From the IMG/VR virus record IMGVR_UViG_3300030419_006654, positions 1 to 64,000 of that record: a stretch of DNA of 64,000 nt. One strand, given 5' to 3'. Positions 20,238-56,353 of the stretch are shown in pieces. The stretch comes from a virus. Made by a program: the position numbers and the translations under genes. The stretch's first letter is position 1; each line of letters starts with the position of its first letter. The notes beneath the pieces were generated by a model. That model did not search any database. It saw only the letters and a list, made by a program, of their open reading frames with translations, and was not told where the DNA came from.

Positions 20238-20240
20238 AGA

Positions 20241-20249
20241 CTATTTACA
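20241..20249 (+). promoter_or_regulatory. Proposed late-promoter element CTATTTACA
   Basis: CTATTTACA directly after the bS21-like gene and 31 bases upstream of the next virion gene. It is one of about ten copies of CTA[T/C/G]TTA[C/T] in gaps before late genes. No good -35 hexamer accompanies it. Confidence 0.5.
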
Positions 20250-20280
20250 TTGAAACAGTTTATTTGGAGGTTTTTTAAAA

Positions 20281-20703
20281 ATGGCAAACTTTAAACCCAC
20301 AGGGTGGCACATGGAGGTGGGCCTAAATCACGTAGGCGCATATCAGGTGAGCGGCAAACCGTTCGCAAAGCAAGTCAACGCACACAGTCTTACCCATGTA
20401 GCTTTCCCCAATGTTACTAGATGGGTTCAGATATATAATCATGATGTAACTAACGAATTGAAAGTCGGATTCTCCTCGCGCGGCATTTCATCGGAAAGCA
20501 ATTACTTTACTATCGCTCCCGTTGGTAGCGGCAGCGTCAGTGGTCGGACATCCGTGATCGGCCCTCTTGAGTTAAAAGTAACCCAACTTTGGCTTTCTGG
20601 TTCGGATAGTGTTTCTATCGTTGCGGGCCTAACTAGCATAGAGCCAGACAAGGCTAAAACTTCCGACGGCGAGAACTGGTCAGGCTCTGCAGGGGTCGGT
20701 TAG
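20281..20703 (+). CDS. Probable virion surface or decoration protein
   Basis: A 140-residue protein starting with a strong TTTGGAGG site. It looks all-beta: alternating hydrophobic and polar residues, many Ser, Thr, Gly and Val, and few charges. The N-terminus reads GWHMEVGLNHVGAYQVSG. No catalytic motif is visible. Its position between head-core genes and fibre-like proteins suggests a capsid decoration or head-fibre base protein, but I do not recognise a named family. It is followed after 2 bases by the next structural gene. Confidence 0.6.
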   Translation: MANFKPTGWHMEVGLNHVGAYQVSGKPFAKQVNAHSLTHVAFPNVTRWVQIYNHDVTNELKVGFSSRGISSESNYFTIAPVGSGSVSGRTSVIGPLELKVTQLWLSGSDSVSIVAGLTSIEPDKAKTSDGENWSGSAGVG

Positions 20704-20705
20704 TA

Positions 20706-21410
20706 ATGGCGCACGGTACCTTTGGATGGGCATATGTAGATTGCTCAGGATCAGGGGCCCCGCAAGGACACGGCCCCACTGGTTCTATACAATTCATGAC
20801 TGGCTCCGGAAATACTTCCGGCTCGGCCAAGTTTATGTTCCACACAGGGGCCCATGGAGGCTACCAAGCCAACACTGTGGTTTTAGAGGGAACTCTTCAT
20901 GTTTCTGGCGTAATATCCGCTAGTCATTATCACATTGAAAATGTTATTGAGACTACCGAATTTGGTTCGACATATTTCGGAAACTCTAATGACGACGATC
21001 ACGTACGAACAGGTAGCTTTACCGTAGCGAATGCCGCGGCCGTTAAATTATTTGACGTTGATGTGGGCAGCACAACCTCTTCGTTCAAAACTTCTGTATA
21101 TTTAAGCGGCGCAGTGTCCCACAAGCGCTACGCGACAAATTCAAACTATACGGTAACCACTTCAGATTACTATGTCGGTGTTGGCTCCGCTTCTAGTGGC
21201 ATCACTATAACCTTGCCTGCTGCCAGCACCACAACAGATGGGCAGACATTTATTATAAAAGATGAATTTGGCCACGCACAGACAAATAATATTACTATAA
21301 ATCGCGCAGGTTCAGATACAATTGACGGTCAAAATTCAGTAGTTTTAGAATCAGATTATGCATCTGTGTCACTTTATTGTAACGGCTCAAATAAATATTT
21401 CGTTTTCTAA
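20706..21410 (+). CDS. Fibre-like structural protein with shared C-terminal domain
   Basis: A 234-residue Gly/Ser/Thr-rich, probably beta-structured protein. The C-terminal 90 residues contain ITITLPAAS, then a glycine- and asparagine-rich segment, then SVVLESDYASVSLYCNGSNKYFVF. The same pattern (TLP or TMP, DNxx, LESxYAxVS, aromatic end) recurs at the end of the next protein and, more weakly, in the protein at 26110. This looks like a trimeric fibre or head-fibre tip domain reused in several proteins. It starts 2 bases after the previous gene. Receptor or glycan binding is plausible but not shown. Confidence 0.6.
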   Translation: MAHGTFGWAYVDCSGSGAPQGHGPTGSIQFMTGSGNTSGSAKFMFHTGAHGGYQANTVVLEGTLHVSGVISASHYHIENVIETTEFGSTYFGNSNDDDHVRTGSFTVANAAAVKLFDVDVGSTTSSFKTSVYLSGAVSHKRYATNSNYTVTTSDYYVGVGSASSGITITLPAASTTTDGQTFIIKDEFGHAQTNNITINRAGSDTIDGQNSVVLESDYASVSLYCNGSNKYFVF

Positions 21411-21431
21411 TCCTGCGCATCCTTTAGCACA

Positions 21432-21440
21432 CTATTTATA
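21432..21440 (+). promoter_or_regulatory. Proposed late-promoter element CTATTTATA
   Basis: CTATTTATA in a 47-base gap, 17 bases before the start of the repeat-rich fibre-like gene and just ahead of its GGCGGAGGG ribosome site. A member of the proposed late motif family. Confidence 0.5.
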
Positions 21441-21457
21441 GGCGGAGGGTTTTATAT

Positions 21458-22624
21458 ATGTCATATAAATATACATCTGGTGCAACGATTTTGTCGGGTG
21501 CACTAATCGTTCAGGGTTCGATTGAATCAGCGAATCCCGGCGATCAAAGTCAACTGATTCAAGTTGATGGCACAACAGTCATCGACAAAGACCAAAAGGT
21601 AATTGCCTCTTCGGTGACGTCTTCTGGGGCCGGCGGCTTCCAGAGTATCGACATTCATGGTGGCGTTGCTTCGTGGGCAAATAATGGTAACATCACCGCC
21701 GCGGCAGTTCAGGGCACGAACATCTCTGGCTCCGGAGTCGGTGCTTTTCAAACTTTAGCAATTAACGGCAACCATGCTGCAATTGATGCTAATGGTGCTG
21801 CGACTGTTCGCGAACTTACAGCATCTGCTGGCATTAAAGCTGTCACGGTGTCCGGTTCTGGTCAAGGTTCTTTCGAGAACATAAGCATTGGCGGCGGTAC
21901 ATCAACCATTAACAATGCTGGCGCAATCGTTGGTGCCTCAGTTTCTGCATCCGCAGCGGGTGGTTTTCAAACTTTAGCAATTAACGGTAACCGTGCTGCA
22001 ATTGATGCTAACGGCGCCGCGAATTTCCGTGAGATTACTTGCTCTGCTGGTATTCTGGCAGTCTCAGTATCTGGTTCAGGTACTGGTGCGTTCCAAGCGC
22101 TCGAAATCCACGGTGGTGTGGGCGGTATTGATAACGCTGGTGTTTTCACTGGTACTGGGTTAACTCTTGGTTCTGCTGCAATTGTTGAAGCAGAATTGGA
22201 AATGATTGATGGTATCACTGCTGGTACTGCTCTTGCCTCAAAGGCCGTTGTTCTTGGTGCTCAGAAAGATATCACCGGAATTAACGCAATCACCGCCTCT
22301 GCATTCAGGGGAGATGGTAGTGGTCTAACTGGCGTCACAGCCGGCACAACGGTTTCCAACCTTACTCATAATGTAGTACTTAGCACTGGTTACAACTACA
22401 TGACCGGTACAACAAATGTTACATGTACGATGCCTTCTGGCTCGAACACAGACGTTGTTCACATCAAAGCTGGTAACTTAGCTTCAGGTCACAAAGTTAC
22501 AATCCAAACAGCAAGTGCACAACAGATTGACAACAGCAATGGTCCAATTACTTTGGAATCACCATACGCTGCTGTTTCTATGTTCTATGTTGCTGGAACT
22601 ATCAACGCCTGGTTCATTGTCTAA
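21458..22624 (+). CDS. Repeat-containing fibre-like structural protein
   Basis: A 388-residue protein built of repeated motifs of about 35-40 residues (for example GAFQTLAINGN followed by AAIDANGAA), rich in Gly, Ala, Ser and Ile with almost no charge, consistent with a beta-helical or beta-roll shaft. After the repeats come a RGDGSGLTGV motif, common in phage fibre and chaperone-linked tip regions, and a C-terminal domain ending LESPYAAVSMFYVAGTINAWFIV that parallels the previous protein. It is preceded by a strong ribosome site and followed by a strong terminator. I read it as a fibre or head-fibre protein; the precise virion location is unknown. Confidence 0.65.
   Translation: MSYKYTSGATILSGALIVQGSIESANPGDQSQLIQVDGTTVIDKDQKVIASSVTSSGAGGFQSIDIHGGVASWANNGNITAAAVQGTNISGSGVGAFQTLAINGNHAAIDANGAATVRELTASAGIKAVTVSGSGQGSFENISIGGGTSTINNAGAIVGASVSASAAGGFQTLAINGNRAAIDANGAANFREITCSAGILAVSVSGSGTGAFQALEIHGGVGGIDNAGVFTGTGLTLGSAAIVEAELEMIDGITAGTALASKAVVLGAQKDITGINAITASAFRGDGSGLTGVTAGTTVSNLTHNVVLSTGYNYMTGTTNVTCTMPSGSNTDVVHIKAGNLASGHKVTIQTASAQQIDNSNGPITLESPYAAVSMFYVAGTINAWFIV
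21745..22021 (+). repeat. Two near-identical 58-base repeats inside the fibre-like gene
   Basis: Bases 21745-21802 and 21964-22021 differ at only a handful of positions and are exactly 219 bases apart (73 codons), so they are in frame and encode the same AINGN...AIDANGAA unit. Recombination between them could delete or add one 73-residue module of the fibre shaft. Confidence 0.8.
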
Positions 22625-22657
22625 TATAGATTTAAATCCAATTTAGTTATACTTTTT

Positions 22658-22690
22658 CGATGCCCCCACACCGGGGGCATCGTTTTTTTT
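22658..22690 (+). terminator. Rho-independent terminator after the fibre-like gene
   Basis: A perfect 10-base-pair stem (CGATGCCCCC with GGGGGCATCG) with a 5-base loop is followed by eight T residues. It lies 34 bases after the fibre-like gene stop and separates it from the scaffold and capsid genes. Confidence 0.93.
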
Positions 22691-22718
22691 ATATTAGGGT
22701 ATTTACGTGTTTTTGACA

Positions 22719-22727
22719 CTATTTACC
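22719..22727 (+). promoter_or_regulatory. Proposed late-promoter element CTATTTACC before scaffold/capsid genes
   Basis: CTATTTACC lies 28 bases after a strong terminator and 30 bases before the scaffold start, where a new promoter is needed for the most highly expressed virion genes. This placement is among the best evidence that the motif is a promoter element. Confidence 0.55.
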
Positions 22728-22757
22728 ATTGTATTAGTGCCACTAGGAGAACAAAAT

Positions 22758-24077
22758 ATGTCCAATCTGCTTAATGAAGCCATTGTTGACGCAAAAGCCT
22801 TGAGAGAGGCCGCATTGAAAAATGCAGAAACCATCGTAATCGAGAAGTATTCTGATGAAGTTAGGCAAACTATTGAGAAGCTTCTGGAACAAGAAGAAGA
22901 TCTTGGATTAGATCCAGCCGCGGCCCCCGCAGAAGGAGAAGCTGCAGCCGATCCGTTAGCCGATCCCGCCGCAGCCGACCCATTGGCCGATCCTGCAGCC
23001 ATGACGATGGAGGAAGGCGAAGGGGAGCAAGAGGAAATCACAGAAGACGATATTCCCTTGGCCGCAACTGATGACTTTGCGGATCTTGATGGAAAGAACT
23101 TAGGACAACTGCCTTCGAGTGGCGAAGAAGTTGAACTTAACCTTAATTTAGGCGCCCTTCAGGAGTCTGTTTCAAAATTGATGGAAGAAACCGAAGAGGA
23201 ATACGATATAAATGAAGAGACCATAGCTGCAATTCTGTCAGAAGAGGGCTGCCCTTCGGATGAAGAAGAGCTTTATGAAGAAGACAAGTCAGACGACGAT
23301 GAAGATGCCATCGACGCGGCCTCTGCAGACGCCAAGAAGACTCCATGGTTTGATCGCAGTCCCGAACAACACGCAGCGACGGCGGCAAAATACAAAAAGG
23401 ACAACCCCGGGGGCATTCCCAGAGGAACAGATTACGACCCTGAGACAGAAAAACCACAGCGATACAAGGGCTCAAGCGATAGAATGCGCGGCCGCCTTAA
23501 GGAAGACGATGATTCTCTTGAAGAGATGGTCGACGCTATTGTGGAAAAACTTACTGTCGATATGGGTGCCGACCTTTCTGGTTGGGCCGGCCGTTCATCG
23601 GAAGATTTGAAATATCAAATCGAAAAAGAATTGGCCCATCGTCGTAGCACTGATGTGCAAGAAGATTTAGAAGATTTGAAGAAAGCTCAAGAAGAGTTAG
23701 TTTTCGAAAATAACCAACTCACAGAGCGAAACAATCAATATAAGCAAGCATTGCAAGAGTTGAAAGAGAGTTTGCAAGATGTAAACCTCTCTAATGCTCG
23801 CTTGCTTTATACGAACCGTGTATTGAGAAATACCTCCCTGAATGAGCGACAAAAAGAAAAGATTGTCGAAGCTATTTCCAGCGCCGGTTCAGTAGCAGAA
23901 GCGAGAACGATCTATGAAACGCTTCAAAGCACAGTGGAGGCCGCTCCTCGGAAAAGCCCACAATCACTGAGCGAGGCAATTGGTCGTCGGTCTACTGTAT
24001 TAAGGGCTACTCGTAAAGAGGCGCCTTCAAATGATCCCTTTCAGGATCGTATGAAAAGATTAGCTGGAATAAAATAA
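22758..24077 (+). CDS. Prohead core scaffolding protein (gp22-like)
   Basis: A 439-residue protein from ATG 22758 (AGGAGAAC upstream; the in-frame ATG at 22707 overlaps the promoter region and is unlikely). It is highly acidic with Ala/Pro/Glu-rich low complexity at about 45-90, and its C-terminal half (about residues 280-400) is a coiled coil. It ends QDRMKRLAGIK, like T4-type scaffolds, which finish in a short basic motif. It sits immediately before the major capsid gene as gp22 does in T4. It should form the inner prohead core around which gp23 assembles and then be digested by the protease. Confidence 0.85.
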   Translation: MSNLLNEAIVDAKALREAALKNAETIVIEKYSDEVRQTIEKLLEQEEDLGLDPAAAPAEGEAAADPLADPAAADPLADPAAMTMEEGEGEQEEITEDDIPLAATDDFADLDGKNLGQLPSSGEEVELNLNLGALQESVSKLMEETEEEYDINEETIAAILSEEGCPSDEEELYEEDKSDDDEDAIDAASADAKKTPWFDRSPEQHAATAAKYKKDNPGGIPRGTDYDPETEKPQRYKGSSDRMRGRLKEDDDSLEEMVDAIVEKLTVDMGADLSGWAGRSSEDLKYQIEKELAHRRSTDVQEDLEDLKKAQEELVFENNQLTERNNQYKQALQELKESLQDVNLSNARLLYTNRVLRNTSLNERQKEKIVEAISSAGSVAEARTIYETLQSTVEAAPRKSPQSLSEAIGRRSTVLRATRKEAPSNDPFQDRMKRLAGIK

Positions 24078-24101
24078 TAAGCAAACAAATAATCATTATA
24101 T

Positions 24102-24113
24102 AAAGGAGGTGAT
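24102..24113 (+). promoter_or_regulatory. Extended Shine-Dalgarno site of the major capsid gene
   Basis: AAAGGAGGTGAT is an essentially complete complement of the 3' end of bacterial 16S rRNA and lies ahead of the capsid ATG at 24120. Such a long match fits the very high expression needed for the capsid protein. Confidence 0.85.
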
Positions 24114-24119
24114 TTTAAA

Positions 24120-25925
24120 ATGTCTAGCATTATTGAAAGATTGACCGAAGGTATGGTCAATCGTGATATGCGCGCCGAAGGACATGCTCTTCTTTCCAAG
24201 TGGGAGAAGACCGGTCTTCTTGAGGGTCTTGGTCAAGATCGTCAGAAGCAGTCCATGGCTCGCTTGCTTGAAAACCAAGCAAAAGAACTACTCCGCGAAA
24301 GCTCTTCTATGCAAGCTGGAGACGTTGAGGGCTTTGCAGCCGTCGCGTTCCCCATTGTGCGTCGTGTTTTCGCCGGCTTAATCGCCAACGATCTCGTTAG
24401 CGTACAGCCAATGAGCCTACCAAGTGGTCTCATTTTCTTCCTTGACTTCGTGTTCTCGGGAGATCTGGGGGCATCTAGCTCACAGAGTGATCGCCATGGT
24501 AACACGGCCAATGATTCCATTTATGGTACCAACCGTGTTGGTTCAGGAATCACAGGCGGTGTGGATCTTGTGGCTTCAGATAGGTCTGACCTCTCTGGTC
24601 CGCGTACATCCGCCCGTGGTTACTCATATGGCTCGCCCACTGGCTCGCTCAGTGTGACGGCCTCTTGTGTAACGGCTTCTGGTTGGCTGATCGGAAATGG
24701 TACTGAGGCACAAAACAAGTCGATCGGATTTGATCCTGATCTTCTTGCTCTTAGTGGCTCTGGTTATTATGTCCTCACACTGGAGATTGACAAGAACATT
24801 CTTGGCCAAACTGGCCTTGGCTCTCAACTCGACTATGACAACTTGTCAGCGTTTAGTTGTTCGTTCAACACCCTTGACGACATGCTCACCACGGCACACA
24901 CGGCGGTAAACACACGACAAGTTCGTCGACTTACCACTGTGAGTACAGGTAGTAATGGTCTCAGTTCAGGCCGTCGCAACGGATATCTTAACATGCACTG
25001 GGTTACCACTGTAGATGTTTCGTCTGTCGACACCGCCGGAGCTTCAACCTTCAACCTGACGGGTGCTATTGTTGACGATATCGTCGCAGGTAGTTCTGTT
25101 GGTTCTGTTGTCGGTCAAACTGACTGGGGACTTGAGGCAGAAGAGAAGATCCCTGAGATCGACATCAAGGTGGACAGCATTGCTGTTACCGCACAAACCA
25201 AGAAGCTCAAGGCTAAGTGGACTCCGGAGTTAGGTCAAGACCTTAACGCCTACCACAACCTTGATGCGGAAGTTGAGTTGACCAGCATTCTCTCTGAGCA
25301 AATTGCTCTTGAGATTGACCGTGAGATCCTTGCTGATCTTGTTAACGGTGCAAAAGCTGCAACCTACTACTGGTCTCGTGCACCCGGCCTCTTTGTTCAC
25401 AAGGAGAACGGTACTGAACTCGGCGCTAGCTCTGCTGCTCCCGACTTCACTGGTACAGTCAGCGAATGGTATGAGACTCTTGTTGAGACCATTAACGACG
25501 TATCTGCACAAATCCACCGCAAGACTCTGCGTGGTGGCGCTAACTTCATCGTCTGCGGACCTGAAGTTGCCAACATTCTTGAGTTCACTGCTGGATTCCG
25601 TGCTTCCGTCACGCATGATGATGAGACCGGTTCTGTCGGTGCCGTCAAGGCTGGCTCACTGAGCAAGAAGTTCGATGTCATTGTTGACCCGTACTTCCTC
25701 CGCAATGTGATCCTCGTTGGTCGTCGCGGATCCTCTTTCCTTGAAAGCGGATATGTGTACGCACCGTACGTGCCACTGCAAACTACACCTACAATCTTCG
25801 GACCTGAAGATTTCGTGCCCCGTAAGGGAGTCATGACTCGCTATGCGAAGAAGATGGTCCGTCCTGATATGTACGGTCTGGTTATTGTACGCGGTCTACT
25901 CGGCGAAGCCGGCGCAACTAGCTAA
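24120..25925 (+). CDS. Major capsid protein (gp23-like)
   Basis: A 601-residue HK97-fold capsid protein of the T4 type. The N-terminal region has LLEGLGQDRQKQSMARLLENQ, a close match in pattern to the gp23 delta domain, and FPIVRRVFAGLIANDLVSVQPM near residues 77-98 matches the gp23 signature after the cleavage site. Leu58-Arg-Glu60 fits the prohead-protease consensus and is close to T4 cleavage after residue 65. The C-terminus carries conserved DVIVDPY and PTIFGPEDFVPRKGVMTRYAKK segments. Length exceeds T4 gp23 (521) because of an Ser/Gly/Thr-rich insert at about 120-270. Codons here are visibly enriched in C- and G-ending forms, consistent with high expression. A separate gp24 vertex gene is not seen. 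Confidence 0.96.
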   Translation: MSSIIERLTEGMVNRDMRAEGHALLSKWEKTGLLEGLGQDRQKQSMARLLENQAKELLRESSSMQAGDVEGFAAVAFPIVRRVFAGLIANDLVSVQPMSLPSGLIFFLDFVFSGDLGASSSQSDRHGNTANDSIYGTNRVGSGITGGVDLVASDRSDLSGPRTSARGYSYGSPTGSLSVTASCVTASGWLIGNGTEAQNKSIGFDPDLLALSGSGYYVLTLEIDKNILGQTGLGSQLDYDNLSAFSCSFNTLDDMLTTAHTAVNTRQVRRLTTVSTGSNGLSSGRRNGYLNMHWVTTVDVSSVDTAGASTFNLTGAIVDDIVAGSSVGSVVGQTDWGLEAEEKIPEIDIKVDSIAVTAQTKKLKAKWTPELGQDLNAYHNLDAEVELTSILSEQIALEIDREILADLVNGAKAATYYWSRAPGLFVHKENGTELGASSAAPDFTGTVSEWYETLVETINDVSAQIHRKTLRGGANFIVCGPEVANILEFTAGFRASVTHDDETGSVGAVKAGSLSKKFDVIVDPYFLRNVILVGRRGSSFLESGYVYAPYVPLQTTPTIFGPEDFVPRKGVMTRYAKKMVRPDMYGLVIVRGLLGEAGATS

Positions 25926-25950
25926 ATCCTAGCAGCGTAATAAAATATAA

Positions 25951-25980
25951 AGCCCTCGTCTTTGACGAGGGCTTTTGTTT
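25951..25980 (+). terminator. Rho-independent terminator after the major capsid gene
   Basis: A perfect 10-base-pair stem (AGCCCTCGTC with GACGAGGGCT) with a TTT loop and a T-rich tail follows the capsid stop by 25 bases. Confidence 0.95.
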
Positions 25981-25989
25981 GTCCATACA

Positions 25990-25998
25990 CTACTTATA
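25990..25998 (+). promoter_or_regulatory. Proposed late-promoter variant CTACTTATA
   Basis: CTACTTATA starts 10 bases after the capsid terminator, 111 bases upstream of the next gene. The 112-base leader contains GTGAACGAATTAGTTCAC, an inverted repeat that could form a hairpin. It is a one-base variant of the main motif, so less certain. Confidence 0.35.
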
Positions 25999-26109
25999 CG
26001 TGAACGAATTAGTTCACACCAAAGTTATCGGGTAGACTTCGAGCTACCCCCTAGTATCGCTGAAACAAATCGATACAGGGACATGATTATAAAAGGAGGG
26101 TTTTTAACT

Positions 26110-26682
26110 ATGGGAACGAAAAGAGTAGGCCTCGCGAGAATTGAGGCATTAATGGAAAACTTGAAGAGAGAATTAAACATGAACGGGGCAACGTGGAAAG
26201 GCACTAGGCGCCCAGTTACAACAATTACTGCGACCAAGTCGGATCTTGCAGTCGGAGATTCGGGTACGATGTATTTGCTTGATGCAGCCGACGAAACCGG
26301 CGCAGTGACGATTACGTTGCCACAATTGTCGACGGCGCTAGTGGGCACAACTTATACTTTTTGTGTCACCGATCCGTCTGATTCGGGATTCCTAATCCAG
26401 ACAGGCGATCTTACCGACACTACTGGCGATATGTACATCGGCGGCATAACCCTGTCTTCGGACGCAGTAAGCTCCACCAGTAACGCCCCTAACGGTCGAA
26501 TTGTCGCACCGGGTGCTAATGATGCTGTTATCCATCTTGATGGAAACCTTGCAAACAGCGGCGGCGAGGTTGGAACAACCATCACCGTAACTGCGGTTAG
26601 TGCTACACAGTGGTATGTCGAAGGTGTCGTGGTCACAGACGACGCTGATTCGAACGGTACCGCACTCTTCCAGAACAACTAA
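26110..26682 (+). CDS. Small virion-associated protein, head-fibre-like
   Basis: A 190-residue protein from ATG 26110, which has a clear AAAAGGAGGG site; upstream in-frame codons belong to the leader. The N-terminal 25 residues form a basic amphipathic helix (RVGLARIEALMENLKRELNMNG), and the remainder is a Thr/Ser/Gly/Asp-rich beta domain containing VTITLPQLS, similar to the TLP element of the fibre-like proteins at 20.7-22.6 kb. It stands alone between two strong terminators next to the capsid gene, implying separate control. A decoration or head-fibre protein is likely; identity is unknown. Confidence 0.6.
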   Translation: MGTKRVGLARIEALMENLKRELNMNGATWKGTRRPVTTITATKSDLAVGDSGTMYLLDAADETGAVTITLPQLSTALVGTTYTFCVTDPSDSGFLIQTGDLTDTTGDMYIGGITLSSDAVSSTSNAPNGRIVAPGANDAVIHLDGNLANSGGEVGTTITVTAVSATQWYVEGVVVTDDADSNGTALFQNN

Positions 26683-26704
26683 TATTAAGATTGTTTTGTT
26701 TTTA

Positions 26705-26730
26705 AAAACCCCCGCCTTGGCGGGGGTTTT
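26705..26730 (+). terminator. Rho-independent terminator
   Basis: AAAACCCCCGC, a CTTG tetraloop and GCGGGGGTTTT form a strong hairpin with flanking A and T runs, 22 bases after the preceding stop. Confidence 0.95.
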
Positions 26731-26755
26731 GTTTATATAAATTCGGGCCTTGTGT

Positions 26756-26761
26756 TATAAT
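26756..26761 (+). promoter_or_regulatory. Possible -10 element before the oxygenase gene
   Basis: TATAAT lies 26 bases after the terminator and about 20 bases before the GTG start. The -35 position has only TTTATA or TTATAT, so the promoter is weak or needs an activator. Confidence 0.35.
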
Positions 26762-26780
26762 AAAAAATCTTGGAGAATCC

Positions 26781-27470
26781 GTGGCAAAAATAAAAAGCAA
26801 GCTAATAAGACCTTTCGGGCCGTCAATCGGTAAATTTACTTTGCCGAAGCAGGTTGTCGAAGACTTCAACGAGGTCTGCGACCTAATATCGGAAAGTGAA
26901 CAACTTTCCAGCGCACTCGATCATTCACAGATATTGGTGGGTAAAGTTAGACAAGAATTAACAATCCCTCAAGAAGTTCTGGAATCCCACGCCGGCTATT
27001 TTAATCAACTGGTTTCGGCATACTTAAAAGAAATTAATCGCCTACCAGCATGCATTGAAAATAACAAACCCGGCGGTGCAATTTTACCCTTAGACGCCCG
27101 CATAGGATCCCACATCAGATCAGGATGGATAGTTAGATCCTTTGCGGGAGATTATAACCCAATTCATATGCATCCAGATGCGGTAATTTCTTGTGCCGGC
27201 TTTTTAAAGGTTCCCGATTGGGAAGAGGAACTAAAAGAAGATAAAAATGATCATTATGGTTTAACGCATGGGTGTTTGACTTTTTCATACGGCGACGTCT
27301 CCGCCCTGTCACAAAATAGTTATGTGATTCGCCCCAAAGTCGGAGATATATACATGTTTCCCGGTTGGCTGCAGCATGCCGTATATCCATTTAGATCTGC
27401 CGGCGAAAGAAGGTCCTTTTCACTGAATATCGTCACACAAATACAGAAGAAAAATTCTGAATTCAAGTAA
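26781..27470 (+). CDS. 2-oxoglutarate/Fe(II)-dependent oxygenase-like protein
   Basis: A 229-residue protein starting at GTG 26781 after a TTGGAGA site. The double-stranded beta-helix motifs are visible: HMHPD (His and Asp metal ligands, residues about 131-135), then GDIYMFPGWLQHAVYPF with the distal His, and ERRSFSLNI with the arginine that binds 2-oxoglutarate. This pattern matches the putative 2OG-Fe(II) oxygenase family often found in marine phages. The substrate is unknown; hydroxylation of a capsid or tail protein, or of a nucleic acid, are options. It sits alone between terminators and the neck genes, so it is probably expressed with late genes. Confidence 0.8.
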   Translation: MAKIKSKLIRPFGPSIGKFTLPKQVVEDFNEVCDLISESEQLSSALDHSQILVGKVRQELTIPQEVLESHAGYFNQLVSAYLKEINRLPACIENNKPGGAILPLDARIGSHIRSGWIVRSFAGDYNPIHMHPDAVISCAGFLKVPDWEEELKEDKNDHYGLTHGCLTFSYGDVSALSQNSYVIRPKVGDIYMFPGWLQHAVYPFRSAGERRSFSLNIVTQIQKKNSEFK

Positions 27471-27543
27471 AAGTCTAAAAAAGCCGATCTGCCAAATTTT
27501 TTCGCCGGTAAAATTTTGAGATTTTCGGTTTTGTAAAAATAAA

Positions 27544-27552
27544 CTAGTTATC
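27544..27552 (+). promoter_or_regulatory. Proposed late-promoter variant CTAGTTATC
   Basis: CTAGTTATC, 20 bases before the start of the basic protein at 27573 and in the 102-base gap after the oxygenase gene. A one-base variant of the main motif, also seen before the tail tube gene. Confidence 0.35.
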
Positions 27553-27572
27553 ACATAACACAGGAGTTACCA

Positions 27573-27890: not shown

Positions 27891-27947
27891 AATCTTCCTT
27901 CTTTGATAATAAGGCCACAGCAAGTCTGGGGTTTTAGGTTTATAAAA

Positions 27948-27956
27948 CTATTTACA
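27948..27956 (+). promoter_or_regulatory. Proposed late-promoter element CTATTTACA before the neck genes
   Basis: CTATTTACA in an 83-base gap, 17 bases before the neck gene start, followed by a GAGAGGAGG ribosome site. Identical to the copy at 20241. Confidence 0.5.
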
Positions 27957-27973
27957 GAGAGGAGGAATAATGC

Positions 27974-29245: not shown

Positions 29246-29251
29246 TAAAAA

Positions 29252-29740
29252 GTGGCCAATGATTGGAAAAGACCAGAACAGCCGCCTCCACCACTCTTTT
29301 TAGGGAAAAAAGAGCGCGACTTAGTAAAACAGGTAAATGACGAACTTATTGAAAAGGTCATTGGCCAACAGATATTATATTATCCCATAGATATGGAAAG
29401 AACCAATTTTCACGATCTTTACGGCGAGGCTGTCGAAAAAACCTACCTACCACCAGTCAGAGTTTATGCACTCGTAGAGTGGAAGACGGATACTACGGAT
29501 TATCTAGAAGGCGCCGGTATTGACAGGCAGTGGGAAATTGTAGTCCATTTTCACAGAAGAAGATTGACGGAAGATCAAGATTTGTTCGTACGCGAAGGTG
29601 ATTTTGTTTTATACAATAATCATTATTACGAGATAGTTAATACATCTGAACCAAAATTATTGTTTGGCCAAGCCGGCCGAGACTTTGAAATTATGGCAAC
29701 TTGCAAGAGAGCAAGAAAGGGACTATTTGATGCTACCTGA
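29252..29740 (+). CDS. Neck protein (gp14-like)
   Basis: A 162-residue protein from GTG 29252. KKERDLVKQVNDELIEKVIGQ followed by YYPIDMERTNFHDLYGEAVEK is the conserved N-terminal pattern of T4 gp14-type neck proteins, and the rest is a beta-rich domain (WEIVVHFHRR, FVLYNNHYYEIV). With the preceding protein it should form the collar through which the tail attaches. It overlaps the next gene by 11 bases. T4 gp14 is longer (256 residues), so this is a compact form. Confidence 0.8.
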   Translation: MANDWKRPEQPPPPLFLGKKERDLVKQVNDELIEKVIGQQILYYPIDMERTNFHDLYGEAVEKTYLPPVRVYALVEWKTDTTDYLEGAGIDRQWEIVVHFHRRRLTEDQDLFVREGDFVLYNNHYYEIVNTSEPKLLFGQAGRDFEIMATCKRARKGLFDAT

Positions 29741-30623
29741 TAACTTTGATTTTGCAATGCTGCCGGATCTTCCAAGAACCGGATCGGTGGGTCTAAAAGA
29801 AATTGGTTTGATGCGATCGTCAATTGAGAGTATTGATTACGCTATAACTTCGTGGTTAAAAGAAGATTTAAAACTTCATGCGATCACCAACGAGGGCCGC
29901 ACAAGGGTGCCTGTTTTGTGGCAGACTCCGGAACGCGCCTACCAGCTAAAAAACGAAAAAGATTTGCGAGATGACGTGGGAGCACTAAAATTACCACTCA
30001 TCAGCATAGAGAGGACCGGGATCACAAAAGATCCGGCTAGAAAAGGAGCATATCAGGCCCACATATATTCAGGCGACGGCGATGGAAGAACCGGCCGGAT
30101 GACCATAGCTAAAAGAATAGTAGAAGACAAAACGCGCAACTTCGCGGCCGCCGCGGGCTTGAGGAAACTCCCAGTAGAGGGAAAACCAAGCGGACACCAA
30201 CAATGGTACCCTAGAATTAATAAAAAGGTGGTAATACAGACTCTCTCGATTCCTATTCCCGTATATGTTGATGTCGATTATAAAATTACGATAAAAACTG
30301 AGTACCAACAACAGATGAACGATCTGGTTGAGCCATTTATAGGAAGAACAGGCCAAATCAATTCATTTGTGCTAAGAAGACAGGGGCACTTATACGAAGC
30401 TTTCATACAACAGGATTTTTCACACAACAATAATGTGGCAAGTTTAAATGAGGATTCTAGAATGTTTTCGACCGATATAACCATAAAAGTTCTTGGATAT
30501 TTGATTGGTGAGGGAGAAAACGATGATCGCCAACTTGTTAAAATAGAAGAAAATGTAGTAGAAATCACATTTCCAAGGGAAAGAGTTGCACTTCCGGGCG
30601 ATTCGGAGTTATTGCCCGATTAG
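29730..30623 (+). CDS. Tail sheath stabiliser/completion protein (gp15-like)
   Basis: A 297-residue protein. ATG 29730 is preferred because AAAGG precedes it and it overlaps the previous gene by only 11 bases. Features in order: an N-terminal helix, a RVPVLWQTPERAYQLKN segment, LPLISIERTG, then PIPVYVDVDYKITIKTEYQQQMNDLVEPFIG and a final domain. This parallels T4 gp15 (R-x-P near the start, LP-x-I, and the QI-EQ-PYF region). gp15 caps the finished tail and links it to the neck. Length is near T4 gp15 (272). Confidence 0.72.
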   Translation: MLPDNFDFAMLPDLPRTGSVGLKEIGLMRSSIESIDYAITSWLKEDLKLHAITNEGRTRVPVLWQTPERAYQLKNEKDLRDDVGALKLPLISIERTGITKDPARKGAYQAHIYSGDGDGRTGRMTIAKRIVEDKTRNFAAAAGLRKLPVEGKPSGHQQWYPRINKKVVIQTLSIPIPVYVDVDYKITIKTEYQQQMNDLVEPFIGRTGQINSFVLRRQGHLYEAFIQQDFSHNNNVASLNEDSRMFSTDITIKVLGYLIGEGENDDRQLVKIEENVVEITFPRERVALPGDSELLPD

Positions 30624-30680
30624 TTCCTGAACTCAAGCCAAAATTATTTGTTTAACCGGAGACTTTTGGAAATGCTTCAA

Positions 30681-30689
30681 CTATTTATT
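30681..30689 (+). promoter_or_regulatory. Proposed late-promoter element CTATTTATT before tail sheath
   Basis: CTATTTATT in a 113-base gap, 47 bases before the sheath start. The remainder of the gap shows no convincing terminator or other element. Confidence 0.45.
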
Positions 30690-30736
30690 GATGATTGAAA
30701 GTCATTTCTAATGAACTATAAAGAGGAACCTTCAAG

Positions 30737-33700
30737 ATGTCAGTAAAAAACTTTAAGTTTGTATCACCCGGCGTTTTTATCAATGAGATTGATAATTCAT
30801 TTCGCCCCAAGCGTCCAGAGAACATTGGACCAGTTGTAATCGGCCGCTCCAGCAGAGGCATGGCCATGGAGCCAGTTAAGGTCGAAGCTTACAGCGAATT
30901 TATTAATTTATATGGAGATACGGTCCCCGGCAACGGTGGTGGAGATGTGTATCTCGATGGCAACAACCAGTCTCCGATGTACGGAACGTTCGCCGCTAAA
31001 GCGTTCATGAACGCCAATGTTGCCCCTCTTACATACCTACGACTTCTTGGGCAGCAAACCAGTACCGGAAAAGCCGCCGGCGGAGATGCCGCGGCAGGCT
31101 GGAAAACCGACAATATCGCACCAGCCACGGCGACTGACGATAATTCTGGCAACACGAATGGTGGAGCCTACGGCCTCTTCTTGTTCAAGTCAGGCTCTCA
31201 GGGCACTGGCAGTATCGGTGGCACAAAGGCCACAGGTATCATTAAATTCGCCAGCGCACCAACAACCGGTTCAGTTATCTTTCTTACATCTTCACTTCGC
31301 TCTCTTGACGGCGACGGAAACCTCCTTACAATTACAAAGACAATTAAGGGATACGTTGCGGCAACAGCATCTACTGGCATGACGGTAGGTGGCCTTAACA
31401 CCAGTAGTCATGTTCTATACCACCACGGTAAAGCCGGTGTCGCTGAGGCAGATAGGCCCGCATCAGCCATCGAATCCTTGAGAGAGGCAATCAATTCGGC
31501 AAACGGCCACAACGGCGGCACAATAGATTCTGTTTTCGAGCTTCACCACGTAACAGGCTCTGACAGCCTTAACCTAACTGCTTCTGTTGCCGGCACAGGC
31601 TCCAATGAAACAATTATCACCAAGGGCGCCGGCGCAACTATCACAGTATCTGGTATGAGTGGCGGCGAAGAGCAAGAGCCCCAGCAGAGCAGATTCGGCG
31701 GTAACCTCGGCACAGGCTCTCTTGCTGCGATTTGGTACCTGCACAACGGGAAAATCCAGCTTAGTGGAAACGTCTGGGGTAAAGCCGGCTCCGGTCAGGT
31801 CGCGAACACGGCCTCCGCGTATGCATTTATTAACTCAGACAGTAACGGTAACTATCAGATGGTTATTTCTGGCACTGCTCAGGGCTCAGAGACATTTACG
31901 TTCAACTTTAACGATAATAGCGAAAACTTCATTCGCAACCAGTTTAACACAAACCCACAACTTAAGAGCAGCAACACGAAGACCTTCTTCCCTGCTGCCA
32001 CTCAAGTAGATTACTGGCTTGGCGAGACATTTGAACAAAATGTTCGTAACGACGGCTTTGCGGCCGCAACCTCCAGTGTGGGCATCATCATGGCACTGAA
32101 CTCTTCATCGGCCGATTCGATAAACCTCGGCAACATGAAGAAGCAGGCCGCTCGCGAAGGAAGAACCAGTTGGTTCATCGGTCAAGATCTCGGTGTTGCC
32201 ACCTCCTTCAAGCCGCAGAATCAGCAAAAGCTATTCCGGCTTATTGGCCGCGGCCACGGTGAATGGCTACACAGAAACCTTAAGGTCTCAATTGAGAGAA
32301 TCAGACAATCGAATACAAACACCAGTGCATTTGGTTCATTCTCGGTTGTTATTAGAAAAATTATGGACACGGACGCAAAGGTTGAAGTTGTTGAAAGATT
32401 TGACAACCTAAACTTAGATCCGACGTCTCCAAACTTTGTCGCCAGAAAGATTGGCGATATGTACACCAGTTGGGATTCAACCAACAAGAGGCTTCGGTAC
32501 TATGGTGAATATGCCAACCTGTCAAAATACGTCCGCGTTGAGATGAACACGGATGTTGAAGCAGGCGCAACTGATCCTGCACTTCTGCCCTTCGGCTACT
32601 TTGGTCCGCCAAAAATCAAAGCCACGAACATGGTCAGCGGAAGATCGATCCTGTCTAACATTCTTAGTGCGTCATATGTTGAAGCAAGCGGCTCTTATGC
32701 CGGCGGCCATGGCACCGGCCAACTGCAGCAACTCTTGGGAGGTACCGCACAAGCAGGTGGTGTTACCGCCTCGTTCGACTTCCCAACTGATCTGTTGCGT
32801 TCAGCCTCTACTGATGGTGGAATAACGGATCCCACAAATGCTTACTTTGGTTGGCGCACCACGCGCACCGCAACGTCGAACACACCCGACGCAAGTGTTG
32901 CCAATAAGCACAGACTTCTTTATCCGGATTTCCCGGCTGATCCGACGACCGCTGAAGATGCATGCGGGAGAGGCGTCGATAGTTGGGGTTACGTCTTTAG
33001 TTTGGACGATGTCCAAAAAGATGGCGCCACTAGCGTGTATTACTATAGATCCGGTTCCCGCGCAGAAGGCGTCTCTGTTTCTGCCGGCAATACGTACAAG
33101 ACTCTTCTTGATGCGAATTATAACCGCTTTACGGCACCGTTCTGGGGTGGTTTCGATGGTTTCGACATCACGAAGCCTGATCCACTGGCGAACTCCCTGA
33201 TGAGTGATTCTTCCACAGAAGACAATAGTTATGTATATCACACCTTTAAGCGCGCCATGCAGACATTGGCAGATCCAAGCTTGATAGATTTCAACTTGCT
33301 CGTTACTCCGGGGCTCACCCACGCGGGCTTAACAGAATACGCAATTCAGCTTTGTGAAGATCGCGCTGACGCCTTGACGATTGTTGACCTGCCTACCGTC
33401 TATACTCCAATGCACGAAGAGTATAAAGACAAAGCAGAACGACCTCAAAAGGACACTGTCGCCGCGGCCAATAGCCTGAAAGATAGAAGAATTGACTCCA
33501 GTTATGGTTGTACATTCTATCCATGGGTTCAGACTCGCGACGGTAATACCGGCCAGCTTGTTTGGGTACCGCCCTCTGTTGCGATGATGGGTGTTTTAGC
33601 CTCTTCGGAATCCAAGTCCGATGTCTGGTTCGCACCTGCTGGGTTCAACCGCGGCGGCCTTACGGAAGGTGCAGCCGGAATTCCGATTACAAATGTGTCC

Positions 33701-34144
33701 GAGAGACTTTCATCTAAGGAGCGCGATACTCTTTATGACGCGAGAATCAACCCAATTGCTTCATTCCCATCTAGTGGAATCGTAGTGTTCGGACAGAAGA
33801 CGCTTCAAGAGCGCCCATCTGCTCTCGATAGAATTAACGTGCGACGTCTGGTGATTTTCCTTAAGAAGCAAATCTCGGTCTTGTCTACACAAATTCTCTT
33901 TGAGCAGAATGTTCAAGCGACTTGGGATAGGTTTAAGGGCCTCGTCGAACCGTTCCTCGCGAACGTTAAGACTAGATTTGGTATCTCTGATTACCGCTTG
34001 ATTCTTGACGAATCAACAACCACCCCTGATCTCATTGATCAGAATATTATGTATGCTAAGATTCTTATCAAGCCTGCACGCGCCATCGAGTTCATTGCGA
34101 TTGACTTCGTGATTCTTTCAACTGGTGCATCTTTCGATGACTAA
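30737..34144 (+). CDS. Tail sheath protein (gp18-like), enlarged
   Basis: A 1135-residue contractile sheath subunit. The N-terminus KFVSPGVFINEID and IGPVVIGRSSRG, and the C-terminal segment INPIASFPSSGIVVFGQKTLQ through ALDRINVRRLVIFLKKQI, are the conserved ends of T4-type sheath proteins that form the handshake between subunits. T4 gp18 has 659 residues; the extra 450 or so lie mainly in a Gly/Ser/Thr-rich insertion in the N-terminal half (about 100-400), probably surface-exposed domains. It is followed after 46 bases by the tail tube gene. The AAAGAGGAAC site precedes the ATG. Confidence 0.93.
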   Translation: MSVKNFKFVSPGVFINEIDNSFRPKRPENIGPVVIGRSSRGMAMEPVKVEAYSEFINLYGDTVPGNGGGDVYLDGNNQSPMYGTFAAKAFMNANVAPLTYLRLLGQQTSTGKAAGGDAAAGWKTDNIAPATATDDNSGNTNGGAYGLFLFKSGSQGTGSIGGTKATGIIKFASAPTTGSVIFLTSSLRSLDGDGNLLTITKTIKGYVAATASTGMTVGGLNTSSHVLYHHGKAGVAEADRPASAIESLREAINSANGHNGGTIDSVFELHHVTGSDSLNLTASVAGTGSNETIITKGAGATITVSGMSGGEEQEPQQSRFGGNLGTGSLAAIWYLHNGKIQLSGNVWGKAGSGQVANTASAYAFINSDSNGNYQMVISGTAQGSETFTFNFNDNSENFIRNQFNTNPQLKSSNTKTFFPAATQVDYWLGETFEQNVRNDGFAAATSSVGIIMALNSSSADSINLGNMKKQAAREGRTSWFIGQDLGVATSFKPQNQQKLFRLIGRGHGEWLHRNLKVSIERIRQSNTNTSAFGSFSVVIRKIMDTDAKVEVVERFDNLNLDPTSPNFVARKIGDMYTSWDSTNKRLRYYGEYANLSKYVRVEMNTDVEAGATDPALLPFGYFGPPKIKATNMVSGRSILSNILSASYVEASGSYAGGHGTGQLQQLLGGTAQAGGVTASFDFPTDLLRSASTDGGITDPTNAYFGWRTTRTATSNTPDASVANKHRLLYPDFPADPTTAEDACGRGVDSWGYVFSLDDVQKDGATSVYYYRSGSRAEGVSVSAGNTYKTLLDANYNRFTAPFWGGFDGFDITKPDPLANSLMSDSSTEDNSYVYHTFKRAMQTLADPSLIDFNLLVTPGLTHAGLTEYAIQLCEDRADALTIVDLPTVYTPMHEEYKDKAERPQKDTVAAANSLKDRRIDSSYGCTFYPWVQTRDGNTGQLVWVPPSVAMMGVLASSESKSDVWFAPAGFNRGGLTEGAAGIPITNVSERLSSKERDTLYDARINPIASFPSSGIVVFGQKTLQERPSALDRINVRRLVIFLKKQISVLSTQILFEQNVQATWDRFKGLVEPFLANVKTRFGISDYRLILDESTTTPDLIDQNIMYAKILIKPARAIEFIAIDFVILSTGASFDD

Positions 34145-34158
34145 AAAAAATATGTCAA

Positions 34159-34167
34159 CTAGTTATG
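34159..34167 (+). promoter_or_regulatory. Proposed late-promoter variant CTAGTTATG before tail tube
   Basis: CTAGTTATG, 23 bases before the tube gene start and just before TATATAAAGGGAG, which includes the ribosome site. A one-base variant of the main motif. Confidence 0.35.
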
Positions 34168-34190
34168 TTATATAAAGGGAGAAAATAACA

Positions 34191-34784
34191 ATGCCATTCT
34201 GGTCCACAGCTTTTAAGGAAAATGTTGCCTTAAAAGATCCAAAAAGAAAATTTAGGTTTACCGTACAATTCACAGGAATTAACGCCTCTAATGGTGGTTC
34301 AGTACTTTGGTATGCTAAAACCGCGTCAAAGCCGAAGTTTACCATCGAAACCACAGAACATACCTTTTTAAATCACGCATTCCACTATCCGGGCTCGGTT
34401 AAGTGGGAAGATGTTTCGGTAACCTTGGTCGATCCGGGCGGCGATATTGATGTTGCAGCCTCATTGTCAGCAATTGTGCAAGCAGCCGGCTACACTCCCC
34501 CTACCGATGCAACAAACGAAAACTTAACCAGCCTTTCTAAAGCAAAAGCAGTTGGCGCTTTGGGGCAGGTTCTTATTACGCAGATTGATGCGGATGGAAA
34601 CCCAATCGAAACTTGGACGCTCTGGAATGGCTTTATTACCGGTGTGGAATTCGGAGATCTCGCTTATGGTGAGGACGACTTGAACGAGCTTACGGTAACG
34701 ATTAAGTATGACTGGGCTCGCCTTCAGACTACTGTTCCCGGCGCCGCAATTGTCGACGAAGGCACCGAATATTTTAATATTTAA
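34191..34784 (+). CDS. Tail tube protein (gp19-like)
   Basis: A 197-residue protein with the gp19 pattern: a basic N-terminal segment (LKDPKRKFRFTVQF), the conserved WYAKTASKPKFTIETTEHTFLNHAFHYPGSV region, VKWEDVSVTLVDP, and a C-terminal strand ELTVTIKYDWARLQ. These proteins stack as hexameric rings inside the sheath. Its size is close to T4 gp19 (163), slightly longer. It follows the sheath as in T4. Confidence 0.92.
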   Translation: MPFWSTAFKENVALKDPKRKFRFTVQFTGINASNGGSVLWYAKTASKPKFTIETTEHTFLNHAFHYPGSVKWEDVSVTLVDPGGDIDVAASLSAIVQAAGYTPPTDATNENLTSLSKAKAVGALGQVLITQIDADGNPIETWTLWNGFITGVEFGDLAYGEDDLNELTVTIKYDWARLQTTVPGAAIVDEGTEYFNI

Positions 34785-34830
34785 GAATTTTAATTTATAG
34801 TGTATAATATAAAAAACAGAGAGGTATACA

Positions 34831-35694
34831 TTGTCACGAAATAGAGATCGATTGGGCATCGAAAAAGAAACTAAACCAGCAGATGCTCCGATTCCGCAAG
34901 TGACGAATGACGCGACAGAAGACAACCCGTTTTCCTTTGTCGTTCCCACAGAGTTCGTCGACTTGCCATCACAGGGGTTATACTACCCAGAAAATCATCC
35001 GCTACACAAGCAGGATACAATTGAAATTAAGCAAATGACCGCCAAGGAAGAAGATATTCTCACTTCTAGATCTTTATTGAGAAAAGGGGTGGCTATTGAG
35101 AGAGTGATCCAGAGCTTAATCATGGATAAACGAATTGATCCAAACACCTTGCTTGTTGGCGACAGAAACGCCATTCTTCTCAGCGCTCGCGTATCTGGCT
35201 ATGGAAACGAATATACCACAAAAGTGGAATGTCCAAGCTGCGGTACTGCACAGGAATACACATTTGATCTGAATGATGCTGGAATTCTAAAAGGCGCCGA
35301 CGACGAAGACGTGAAGCTACAGAGGAACTCGGATGGCACTTTCAACACCACTCTTCCGCGTACGAATCTGACTGTCACCATACGTCTTCTGAATGGATAT
35401 GACGAGAAAAATATCACGGGCGCCGCCAAAAGAAAAAACCCCAACAAACCAGATAAACTTATCACAAATCAATTAAAGCAAATCATGGTTGCAGTTAACG
35501 GAAATGACACAGATGAAGCAATTGATTATGTGGCCACAAATCTTCCCTCAAAAGATTCATCATATCTTCGAAAAGCCTACAAGAGTATTGCTCCCAATGT
35601 CGATCTGACACAACATTTTGCGTGTTCATCGTGCGAGTATGAGAGCGCCATGGAGGTGCCGCTTAACGCGGAGTTTTTTTGGCCTGACGCCTGA
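34831..35694 (+). CDS. Baseplate hub assembly protein (gp26-like) with zinc ribbon
   Basis: A 287-residue protein starting at TTG 34831 after AGAGAGG. FVDLPSQGLYYP followed by IEIKQMTAKEEDILTS matches the LPS-x-G-x-xYP and DE-L motifs of T4 baseplate gp26-type proteins. The C-terminal half has two CxxC pairs, ECPSCG at about 132-135 and CSSCEY near 265-270, suggesting zinc binding. Such proteins help assemble the baseplate hub and are often found near the tape measure gene, as here. No ATG start is available nearby. Confidence 0.8.
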   Translation: MSRNRDRLGIEKETKPADAPIPQVTNDATEDNPFSFVVPTEFVDLPSQGLYYPENHPLHKQDTIEIKQMTAKEEDILTSRSLLRKGVAIERVIQSLIMDKRIDPNTLLVGDRNAILLSARVSGYGNEYTTKVECPSCGTAQEYTFDLNDAGILKGADDEDVKLQRNSDGTFNTTLPRTNLTVTIRLLNGYDEKNITGAAKRKNPNKPDKLITNQLKQIMVAVNGNDTDEAIDYVATNLPSKDSSYLRKAYKSIAPNVDLTQHFACSSCEYESAMEVPLNAEFFWPDA

Positions 35695-35698
35695 TTAC

Positions 35699-35932
35699 AT
35701 GGAACAGGTATATGAGGTATTTTTCTTTCTGAAGTATTCGGGAGGCTGGTCATTTAGCGAGGCATACAGTCTTCCAATCGGTCTCAGGAACTGGTTTGCT
35801 GAGCGGCTATTAAAGCAACTAAAAGACGAGAGTGAAGCGATGTCTCGCTCTTCCAAGGGCTCTAACCCCAACTCTCAAACATTATCAAGGTTTAATCAAC
35901 CAAGCATACCACAGCAATTTGCACCCAAGTGA
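35699..35932 (+). CDS. Small tail-assembly protein downstream of gp26-like gene
   Basis: A 77-residue protein from ATG 35699, four bases after the previous stop. It begins MEQVYEVFFFLKYSGGWSFSEAYSLPIGLRNWFAERL and ends in a serine/asparagine-rich tail. In T4-like genomes a short protein (gp51-like or a tail chaperone) often follows the gp26 gene in this place; the aromatic helical core and the RNWFAERL motif are consistent with that group. It precedes the tape measure, so it may act as its assembly chaperone. Identity is uncertain. Confidence 0.6.
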   Translation: MEQVYEVFFFLKYSGGWSFSEAYSLPIGLRNWFAERLLKQLKDESEAMSRSSKGSNPNSQTLSRFNQPSIPQQFAPK

Positions 35933-35959
35933 AGCTCAAAAACTAGTTTTTTGAGCTTC
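35931..35959 (+). terminator. Hairpin between small tail gene and tape measure
   Basis: GAAGCTCAAAAA and TTTTTGAGCTTC form a perfect 12-base-pair inverted repeat with a short loop (CTAGT). The T run is inside the stem rather than after it, so it is a bidirectional or weak terminator, or an RNA-processing hairpin. Confidence 0.65.
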
Positions 35960-35961
35960 TA

Positions 35962-35970
35962 CTATTTACT
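35962..35970 (+). promoter_or_regulatory. Proposed late-promoter element CTATTTACT before tape measure
   Basis: CTATTTACT starts 3 bases after the hairpin and 19 bases before the tape measure start, with GATGAGGAAA as the ribosome site between. Confidence 0.5.
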
Positions 35971-47435: not shown

Positions 47436-47453
47436 TAGCTAAGCTTGCATAGA

Positions 47454-47493
47454 AGCCGATGGCACCCCGGCTGAAATTGGGTGCCGCAATTTT
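47454..47493 (+). ncRNA. H-type pseudoknot element, copy 1 (terminator-like)
   Basis: AGCCG (47454-47458) pairs with CGGCT (47468-47472), and GGCACCC (47461-47467), lying in the loop of that stem, pairs with GGGTGCC (47479-47485). This is the interleaved order of an H-type pseudoknot with 2- and 6-base connecting loops, then GCAATTTT. The GGCACCC/GGGTGCC hairpin alone plus the T run could also act as a terminator. It lies between the SSB stop and the ribosome site of the next small gene. Confidence 0.65.
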
Positions 47494-47745: not shown

Positions 47746-47750
47746 TAAAA

Positions 47751-56344: not shown

Positions 56345-56353
56345 CTACTTATA
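56345..56353 (+). promoter_or_regulatory. Possible late-promoter variant CTACTTATA
   Basis: CTACTTATA, the same variant as after the capsid terminator, but only 2 bases before the annotated start of the metalloprotease. If it is a promoter, that gene would need a later start codon or be read from a leaderless message, so this copy is doubtful. Confidence 0.2.

Follow-up and report, generated by a model that had tools for sequence, protein, structure and literature searches.

The virion gene block and a recurrent gap motif

The stretch of DNA considered here (the window) comprises 64 kilobases (kb) of the 65,458-base IMG/VR virus record IMGVR_UViG_3300030419_006654 (record G000), which gene calls and PHROG scans assign to a myovirus of the T4 superfamily. 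Its terminase (10586), portal (12178), protease (16331), neck (27974) and hub (34831) genes lie together with the capsid, sheath and tube genes given below, and the virion block is followed by genes that PHROG scans attribute to SSB, UvsX, DnaB, RNR and a DnaE-type DNA polymerase. The subject of this study is a short motif, ACTATTTA and its variants, which recurs in the gaps before the virion genes and appears to be a late-promoter element.

24120–25925, + strand: gp23-type major capsid gene (phrog_138, E = 1.2e-70), without a motif of its own
30737–34144, + strand: tail sheath gene (phrog_23, E = 1e-57)
34191–34784, + strand: tail tube gene (phrog_4542, E = 3.3e-23)

An earlier note on this DNA had proposed CTATTTA as a late promoter. 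The six exact copies that it listed (20241, 21432, 22719, 27948, 30681 and 35962) are all present, and so are its four one-base variants, CTACTTAT at 25990 and 56345 and CTAGTTAT at 27544 and 34159, of which the one at 56345 is doubtful: its first base is C instead of A, and it lies only 11 nucleotides (nt) before the GTG of the open reading frame (ORF) 56356. A seventh exact gap copy (55363, before an endolysin gene), overlapping the end of a small ORF (55137–55412), had been missed. In the window as a whole CTATTTA is no commoner than expected (11 copies versus 10.0), so that position, and not count, carries the signal. The 25 upstream gaps contain seven sense copies and no antisense copy, versus 0.34 expected under a first-order Markov model (P = 8e-8); the claim of an above-chance frequency therefore stands for the gaps, although these total 2,523 nt and not the 600 bases assumed before.

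The fuller word is ACTA[T/A/C]TTA, and its candidate sites, with predicted start sites (+1), position weight matrix (PWM) scores and the fraction of orthologous gaps that carry the motif, are as follows, together with associated features and, last, a contrasting promoter from the replication module:

20240–20247, + strand: ACTATTTA, -10-like element before gene 20281 (140 amino acids); orthologues 13/16 loci; +1 candidate A 20253
21431–21438, + strand: ACTATTTA before gene 21458 (388 amino acids); orthologues 6/10; +1 candidate G 21444
22658–22690, + strand: intrinsic terminator upstream of the 22718 candidate (10-base-pair stem, T8)
22718–22725, + strand: ACTATTTA before scaffold-like gene 22758, which precedes the major capsid gene; GGGTATTT lies upstream; orthologues 60/61; +1 candidate G 22731
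25969–25976, + strand: putative upstream element GGGCTTTT, also the 3' end of terminator 25949–25976; T-run starts 16 nt 5' of the -13 A
25989–25996, + strand: ACTACTTA before gene 26110; score 21.1; +1 candidate G 26002
27543–27550, + strand: variant ACTAGTTA before gene 27573; score 12.7; orthologues 8/12
27928–27935, + strand: putative upstream element GGGGTTTT of the 27947 candidate; T-run starts 15 nt 5' of the -13 A
27947–27954, + strand: ACTATTTA before neck/head-tail adaptor gene 27974; score 22.4; orthologues 61/72; +1 candidate A 27960
30663–30667, + strand: putative upstream element CTTTT at the conserved spacing, without a listed hairpin
30680–30687, + strand: ACTATTTA before tail sheath gene 30737; top PWM hit on both strands (22.7); orthologues 50/50; +1 candidate G 30693
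34158–34165, + strand: variant ACTAGTTA before tail tube gene 34191; score 13.1; orthologues 26/38
35961–35968, + strand: ACTATTTA before gene 35990 (874 amino acids); score 15.7; orthologues 10/18; +1 candidate A 35974
55362–55369, + strand: uncertain candidate ACTATTTA, 65 nt before endolysin gene 55427; score 14.0; orthologues only 1/6
15708–15715, + strand: intragenic candidate ACTATTTA with a +1 G, 186 nt before gene 15894 and the protease gene; score 21.4
49525–49553, + strand: sigma70 consensus TTGACA-N17-TATAAT before endonuclease gene 49580 (replication module)

When both strands of the record were searched with a PWM trained without the window, the ten best hits all fell on the + strand, and seven lie in gaps. 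The remaining three are intragenic (15708, 4666 and 9058), and some lie upstream of protease or packaging genes that have no gap promoter; all three could be intragenic late promoters, with 15708 serving the protease block. A strand bias over the whole contig (17 on the + strand versus 0 on the other) was discarded as evidence, since coding sequence avoids the reverse complement TAANTAGT, which holds stop codons in two frames. Several copies had also been described as following strong terminators. This is correct for 22658–22690 and 25949–25976, true hairpins with T-runs, but the hairpin at 35931–35959 abuts the motif and has a poor T tail.

Elsewhere in the window, near-identical copies of AAGCCGATGGCACCCCGGCTGAAATWGGGTGCCGCA (47453–47488 and 47750–47785) flank a small ORF; each could fold into two stems (GCCG/CGGC and GGCACCC/GGGTGCC) paired as in a pseudoknot, with T-rich sequence after them, and Rfam gave no match.

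Conservation, gene class and spacing in relatives

A megablast of 24.5 kb against GenBank phages gave zero matches, whereas at least 599 relatives of the window phage were found in IMG/VR. Among annotated phages, the closest capsid genes belong to uncultured jumbo phages and to Flavobacterium phage immuto, Rhodothermus phage RM378 and Microcystis phage Mel-JY01. Contigs of long relatives were obtained through alignment of the primase; a search for relatives with a baseplate protein (from G033) returned only the query itself. Motif discovery on 591 upstream gaps in 81 loci ranked ACTATTTA as the top enriched 8-mer (212 gaps versus 6.7 expected), with the profile A(86%) C T A [T63 A19 C13] T T A. 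CTATTTA occurs in these loci in 248 sense versus 6 antisense copies, at 4.6 per kb of gap versus 0.06 per kb of coding sequence.

The gene classes behind the motif were compared in 161 related loci, from which overlaps with fully fetched contigs had been removed. Motif-bearing gaps precede the sheath gene in 50/50 cases, the scaffold gene in 60/61, the neck gene in 61/72 and gp6 in 5/5, as well as bp2 (53/71), the class of gene 20281 (g20281, 13/16) and the tube gene (26/38), while permuted control words reach about one or fewer per labelled class. Before replication genes the motif is found once in 79 primase gaps, in none of 73 SbcCD gaps and in none of 34 gaps before SSB, UvsX, 5' exonuclease, DnaB or RNR. 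Restricted to gaps of at least 35 nt and to labels given by homology, the comparison amounts to 281/313 late gaps versus 1/106 replication gaps; it supports the proposal of a late promoter before virion genes, distinct from the T4 sequence TATAAATA, and excludes that the motif is equally frequent before early genes. The distribution of sigma70-like promoters (TTGACA and TATAAT, 15–19 nt apart) is the opposite: 59/106 replication gaps contain one, mostly with 17-nt spacing (8 in shuffles), versus 21/313 late gaps (18 in shuffles). The 146-kb and 190-kb relatives G042 and G052 show the same order along their length: gap sites begin at gp6 and extend over the virion genes, and the region of labelled replication genes has none. 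The capsid gene's own gap (2/80) and the hub gap (0/31) usually or always lack the motif, so these genes would be transcribed from a promoter farther upstream, presumably the one at 22718 for the capsid gene of the window.

The early/replication promoters in the primase and SbcCD gaps of loci L207–L286 are canonical TTGACA-17-TATAAT. This argues against a Bacteroidota host, in which promoters differ, unlike the situation of immuto.

The position of the motif relative to a predicted transcription start was examined at distinct sites separated from the start codon by 45 nt or more, where the ribosome binding site cannot interfere. The base 13 nt beyond the initial A of the motif is a purine at 124 of 149 sites (83% versus 55% at neighbouring positions, P = 2e-13) and a G at 89 of 149 (60% versus 20%, P = 1e-26). 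T4, used as a control, has a purine there in 12 of 14 TATAAATA sites. As TATAAATA occupies -13 to -6 in T4 late promoters (PMC1524935), the T4 element, the [A/G]CTAAATA of Aeromonas phage Aeh1 and the ACTATTTA of the clade all align at -13 to -6. The reverse-complement relation by which the earlier note had set the motif apart from the T4 signal is arithmetically correct, but this same-strand register of the T4 family is more informative.

A second conserved feature lies upstream. In 133 of 508 distinct sites TTTT begins 16–17 nt upstream of the -13 A, versus about 8 per typical other offset, within a consensus GG[C/G]TTTT at roughly -33 to -26; a scoring rule recovers it in 174 of 531 sites versus 2–34 at shifted positions. 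The statement that no -35 element accompanies the motif is not valid for every site, as about one third carry an upstream element at fixed spacing. It recurs in non-orthologous gaps (neck, scaffold, sheath, tube and unlabelled), and the window sites 25969–25976, 27928–27935 and 30663–30667 lie at, or at most 1 nt from, the spacing that is sharply conserved in relatives. Some of these elements are the ends of true terminators, as at 25949–25976. That they are only terminators was rejected: by a simple test, which imperfect hairpins may escape, hairpins accompany 56 of 183 such sites (19 expected) and 127 have none. The upstream sequence may be a promoter element, or it may result from close packing of terminators and promoters. 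No compensation was found between it and the variant base at -9, and GG[C/G]TTTT was not found at T4 or immuto-type sites.

A gp55-like sigma factor and related late-promoter systems

The sigma factor of T4 late transcription, gp55, belongs to the family phrog_234, which also matches immuto26A_153, to which a homologue in Mel-JY01 is about 38% identical. The earlier note had advised searching the genome for such a factor; in relatives, one phrog_234 ORF of about 240 amino acids was found in 31 of 36 long contigs (E = 7.6e-9 to 2e-4), as at 13037–13750 of L307 and 1381–2106 of L287. It is the sole Sigma70_r2 match in 11 of 14 clade genomes, with E values of 0.002–0.03 versus 0.0045 for T4 gp55 in the same search. 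An AlphaFold model built from 47 sequences (predicted local distance difference test, pLDDT, of 81) has T4 gp55 (7d7c_F) as best structural match of residues 19–148 (Z 10.7, 119 aligned residues, root-mean-square deviation 4.8). Lower-ranked matches are nearly all sigma factors (Z 8–9.6); according to the model, therefore, a sigma-domain-2 fold is well supported, and a preference for gp55 over other sigma factors modestly so.

Beyond this domain, residues ~149–237 (about 90 residues) form a predicted helical C-terminal domain that is absent from T4 gp55 and, modelled alone, reaches a pLDDT of 90. A different helical domain would thus stand where gp55 has its clamp-binding tail. Its structural matches are low-scoring and of different kinds (the M domain of SRP54 at Z 5.4, region 4 of SigA at Z 5.0), and no Pfam match to Sigma70_r4 was found in it. 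Families of the T4 co-activator gp33 and sliding clamp gp45 (phrog_254 and phrog_223) were clear only in T4 among the 16 records searched, in which divergent homologues may escape. We also note that the window encodes a DnaE-type DNA polymerase III alpha subunit (phrog_405, 58652–62083), in a T4-superfamily phage in whose relatives the gp45 clamp family was not detected; the phage may borrow the beta clamp of its host.

A separate small protein, with five conserved cysteines and a clear region-4 helix-turn-helix (MTLRQIGDRLGISFARVKQ), matches Sigma70_r4 (E = 3.8e-11 in G042) and, in PDB sequence searches, region 4 of RpoD. It was found in 10 of 41 records, many of the others being fragments that perhaps do not reach the locus, and in several relatives its gene adjoins an IMP dehydrogenase-like gene; one copy occupies 4607–4855 of L313. 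The copy of the record lies just beyond the window:

64922–65134 of record G000 (2922–3134 of L125): small sigma-region-4 protein; its frame enters a run of N at 65118–65127

This protein could be a partner of the gp55-like sigma factor. The idea that this stand-alone protein reads the upstream element was rejected, as the presence of the two is uncorrelated (34/119 versus 16/44 sites, P = 0.35). Split sigma factors are known from SPO1 (gp34/gp33) and Bacillus (SigO/RsoA), and similarly several clade genomes encode both a region-2 sigma factor and a separate small region-4 protein. In the clade pair, joint action would be hypothetical; the small protein is present in only part of the records, and its presence is uncorrelated with the upstream element.

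Late promoters of T4 consist of an 8-base-pair element served by the gp55/gp33/gp45 system (PMC2988020, PMC7892883). The clade resembles T4 in its 8-base-pair element at -13 to -6, in a purine at the predicted +1, at equal distance, in placement before late genes and in the gp55-family sigma factor of the relatives. Yet ACTA[T/A/C]TTA matches TATAAATA at only 4/8 positions, TATAAATA itself occurs in 6 sense copies in clade gaps versus the 248 of CTATTTA, and the upstream element, the undetected gp33 and gp45 and the extended sigma factor are further differences. Aeh1, whose late promoter [A/G]CTAAATA is paired with a diverged gp55 (PMC1524935, PMC2988020), is closer in sequence. Written as ACTAAATA for comparison with ACTATTTA and TATAAATA, its element likewise differs from that of T4 at -13/-12, where its second base is C (-12). 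It equals the clade element at 6/8 positions, but has AA at -9/-8 where the clade has TT (or AT, CT).

Two phages related through the capsid gene extend this comparison; one of them, immuto, is cultured on Flavobacterium sp. LMO8 and is the nearest phage available to the clade. Gaps of immuto are enriched for CTATTTAT/TATTTATA, which have the core TATTTA in common with the clade (the register considered is NNTATTTA), and its gp55-like protein is homologous, whereas most immuto-type sites are without the fixed C at -12 and without GG[C/G]TTTT. RM378 (L090) is enriched for TTATTTAA (9 gaps versus 0.5 expected), again with a TATTTA core, but carries a different sigma factor, phrog_1740, next to the capsid gene; RM378 may have yet another form of such a system. 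None of the literature hits listed, in a search that covered mainly open-access papers, describes ACTATTTA or CTATTTA as a late promoter of phages. Among T4 relatives, gp55-dependent late promoters are an established and variable class, to which the clade sequence adds a new variant; the upstream element, the C-terminal domain of the sigma factor and the undetected clamp partners might make the difference a larger one.

Proposed mechanism, alternatives and implications

We consider it very likely that ACTA[T/A/C]TTA serves as a -10-like element, from -13 to -6, in the late promoters of the window phage and of the large clade of uncultured aquatic myoviruses in the T4 superfamily to which it belongs, and that this element is read by the gp55-like sigma factor. 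Host RNA polymerase with its own sigma70 would first read early and replication genes from TTGACA-17-TATAAT. Later, the gp55-like protein would replace sigma70 on the host core polymerase and direct it to ACTATTTA, with transcription predicted to start at the purine 13 nt from the element's first base and to cover the virion operons (baseplate, scaffold-capsid, neck, sheath and tube). GG[C/G]TTTT at -33 to -26, sometimes the tail of a preceding terminator, accompanies about a third of these promoters.

Several observations weigh against this interpretation. The record, a 65-kb fragment, ends before the gp55-like gene, which synteny places upstream of the baseplate genes, beyond its left end, and which is expected some 40 kb upstream of the primase gene. 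The clade protein has a low identity to T4 gp55 (14%), a sequence-only PDB search with it gave zero matches, and its structural Z score lies within the range attainable by unrelated helical proteins. The labels "late" and "replication" are based on homology and not on expression. Finally, the gaps of terL, portal and the next gene, which are very short, carry the motif in 0/121 cases, so that late expression of these genes needs read-through or intragenic sites such as 15708.

Among the alternatives, the most serious is that the motif is a -10 element read by a primary or alternative host sigma factor, perhaps with a phage activator, while the gp55-like protein serves elsewhere. Host-type sigma70 promoters clearly serve the replication genes of the clade, and in the Microcystis myovirus Ma-LMM01 every stage of infection relies on host SigA-like promoters alone (PMC5780444). 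However, Ma-LMM01 has no gp55-family sigma factor whereas the clade retains one, ACTATTTA does not show the TAnnnT pattern typical of a sigma70 -10 element, sigma70-like pairs stay at the shuffled level in late gaps, and the spacing to the predicted +1 equals that of T4; we therefore regard this explanation as unlikely. A signal other than a promoter, namely an mRNA processing site, a translation element or part of a terminator, would fit the frequent location of the motif after a terminator and shortly before a ribosome binding site. It is very improbable, as the distance to the start codon varies from ~12 to >200 nt, many sites have no terminator, and the +1 purine peak and sense orientation fit a promoter. 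Slightly less credence still is due to a phage-encoded RNA polymerase using the motif as its own promoter: short single-element promoters do occur with some phage polymerases, but the Rpb1-type domain of multisubunit phage enzymes was found in none of 18 genomes, and single-subunit RNA_pol gave only below-cut-off matches, in 3 of the 18. A chance or compositional artefact, which the whole-window count of CTATTTA would allow, can hardly be reconciled with the gap test in the window, the enrichment in relatives and the rarity of permuted words.

Returning to the late promoter read by a gp55-like sigma factor, a more elaborate form of it can be put forward only tentatively and is rather doubtful: a two-element promoter (GG[C/G]TTTT at -33 to -26 and ACTATTTA at -13 to -6), recognised by a gp55-type sigma factor with its own C-terminal DNA-binding domain or with a small sigma-region-4 partner, and independent of gp33 and the gp45 clamp. 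If true, the -35-less, clamp-driven late promoter of T4 would be one of the forms derived from an older system with two elements.

For this widespread clade as a whole, the motif provides a usable rule for late promoters (ACTA[T/A/C]TTA with a purine +1 13 nt on), by which late operons and their starts may be predicted from metagenome contigs. The pairing of a changed promoter sequence with a changed gp55-like sigma factor would make the choice of DNA comparable across T4, Aeh1, immuto and the clade. Together, the upstream element at its fixed spacing and the seeming absence of gp33 and gp45 raise the question of whether the activation by a sliding clamp seen in T4 is general or derived.

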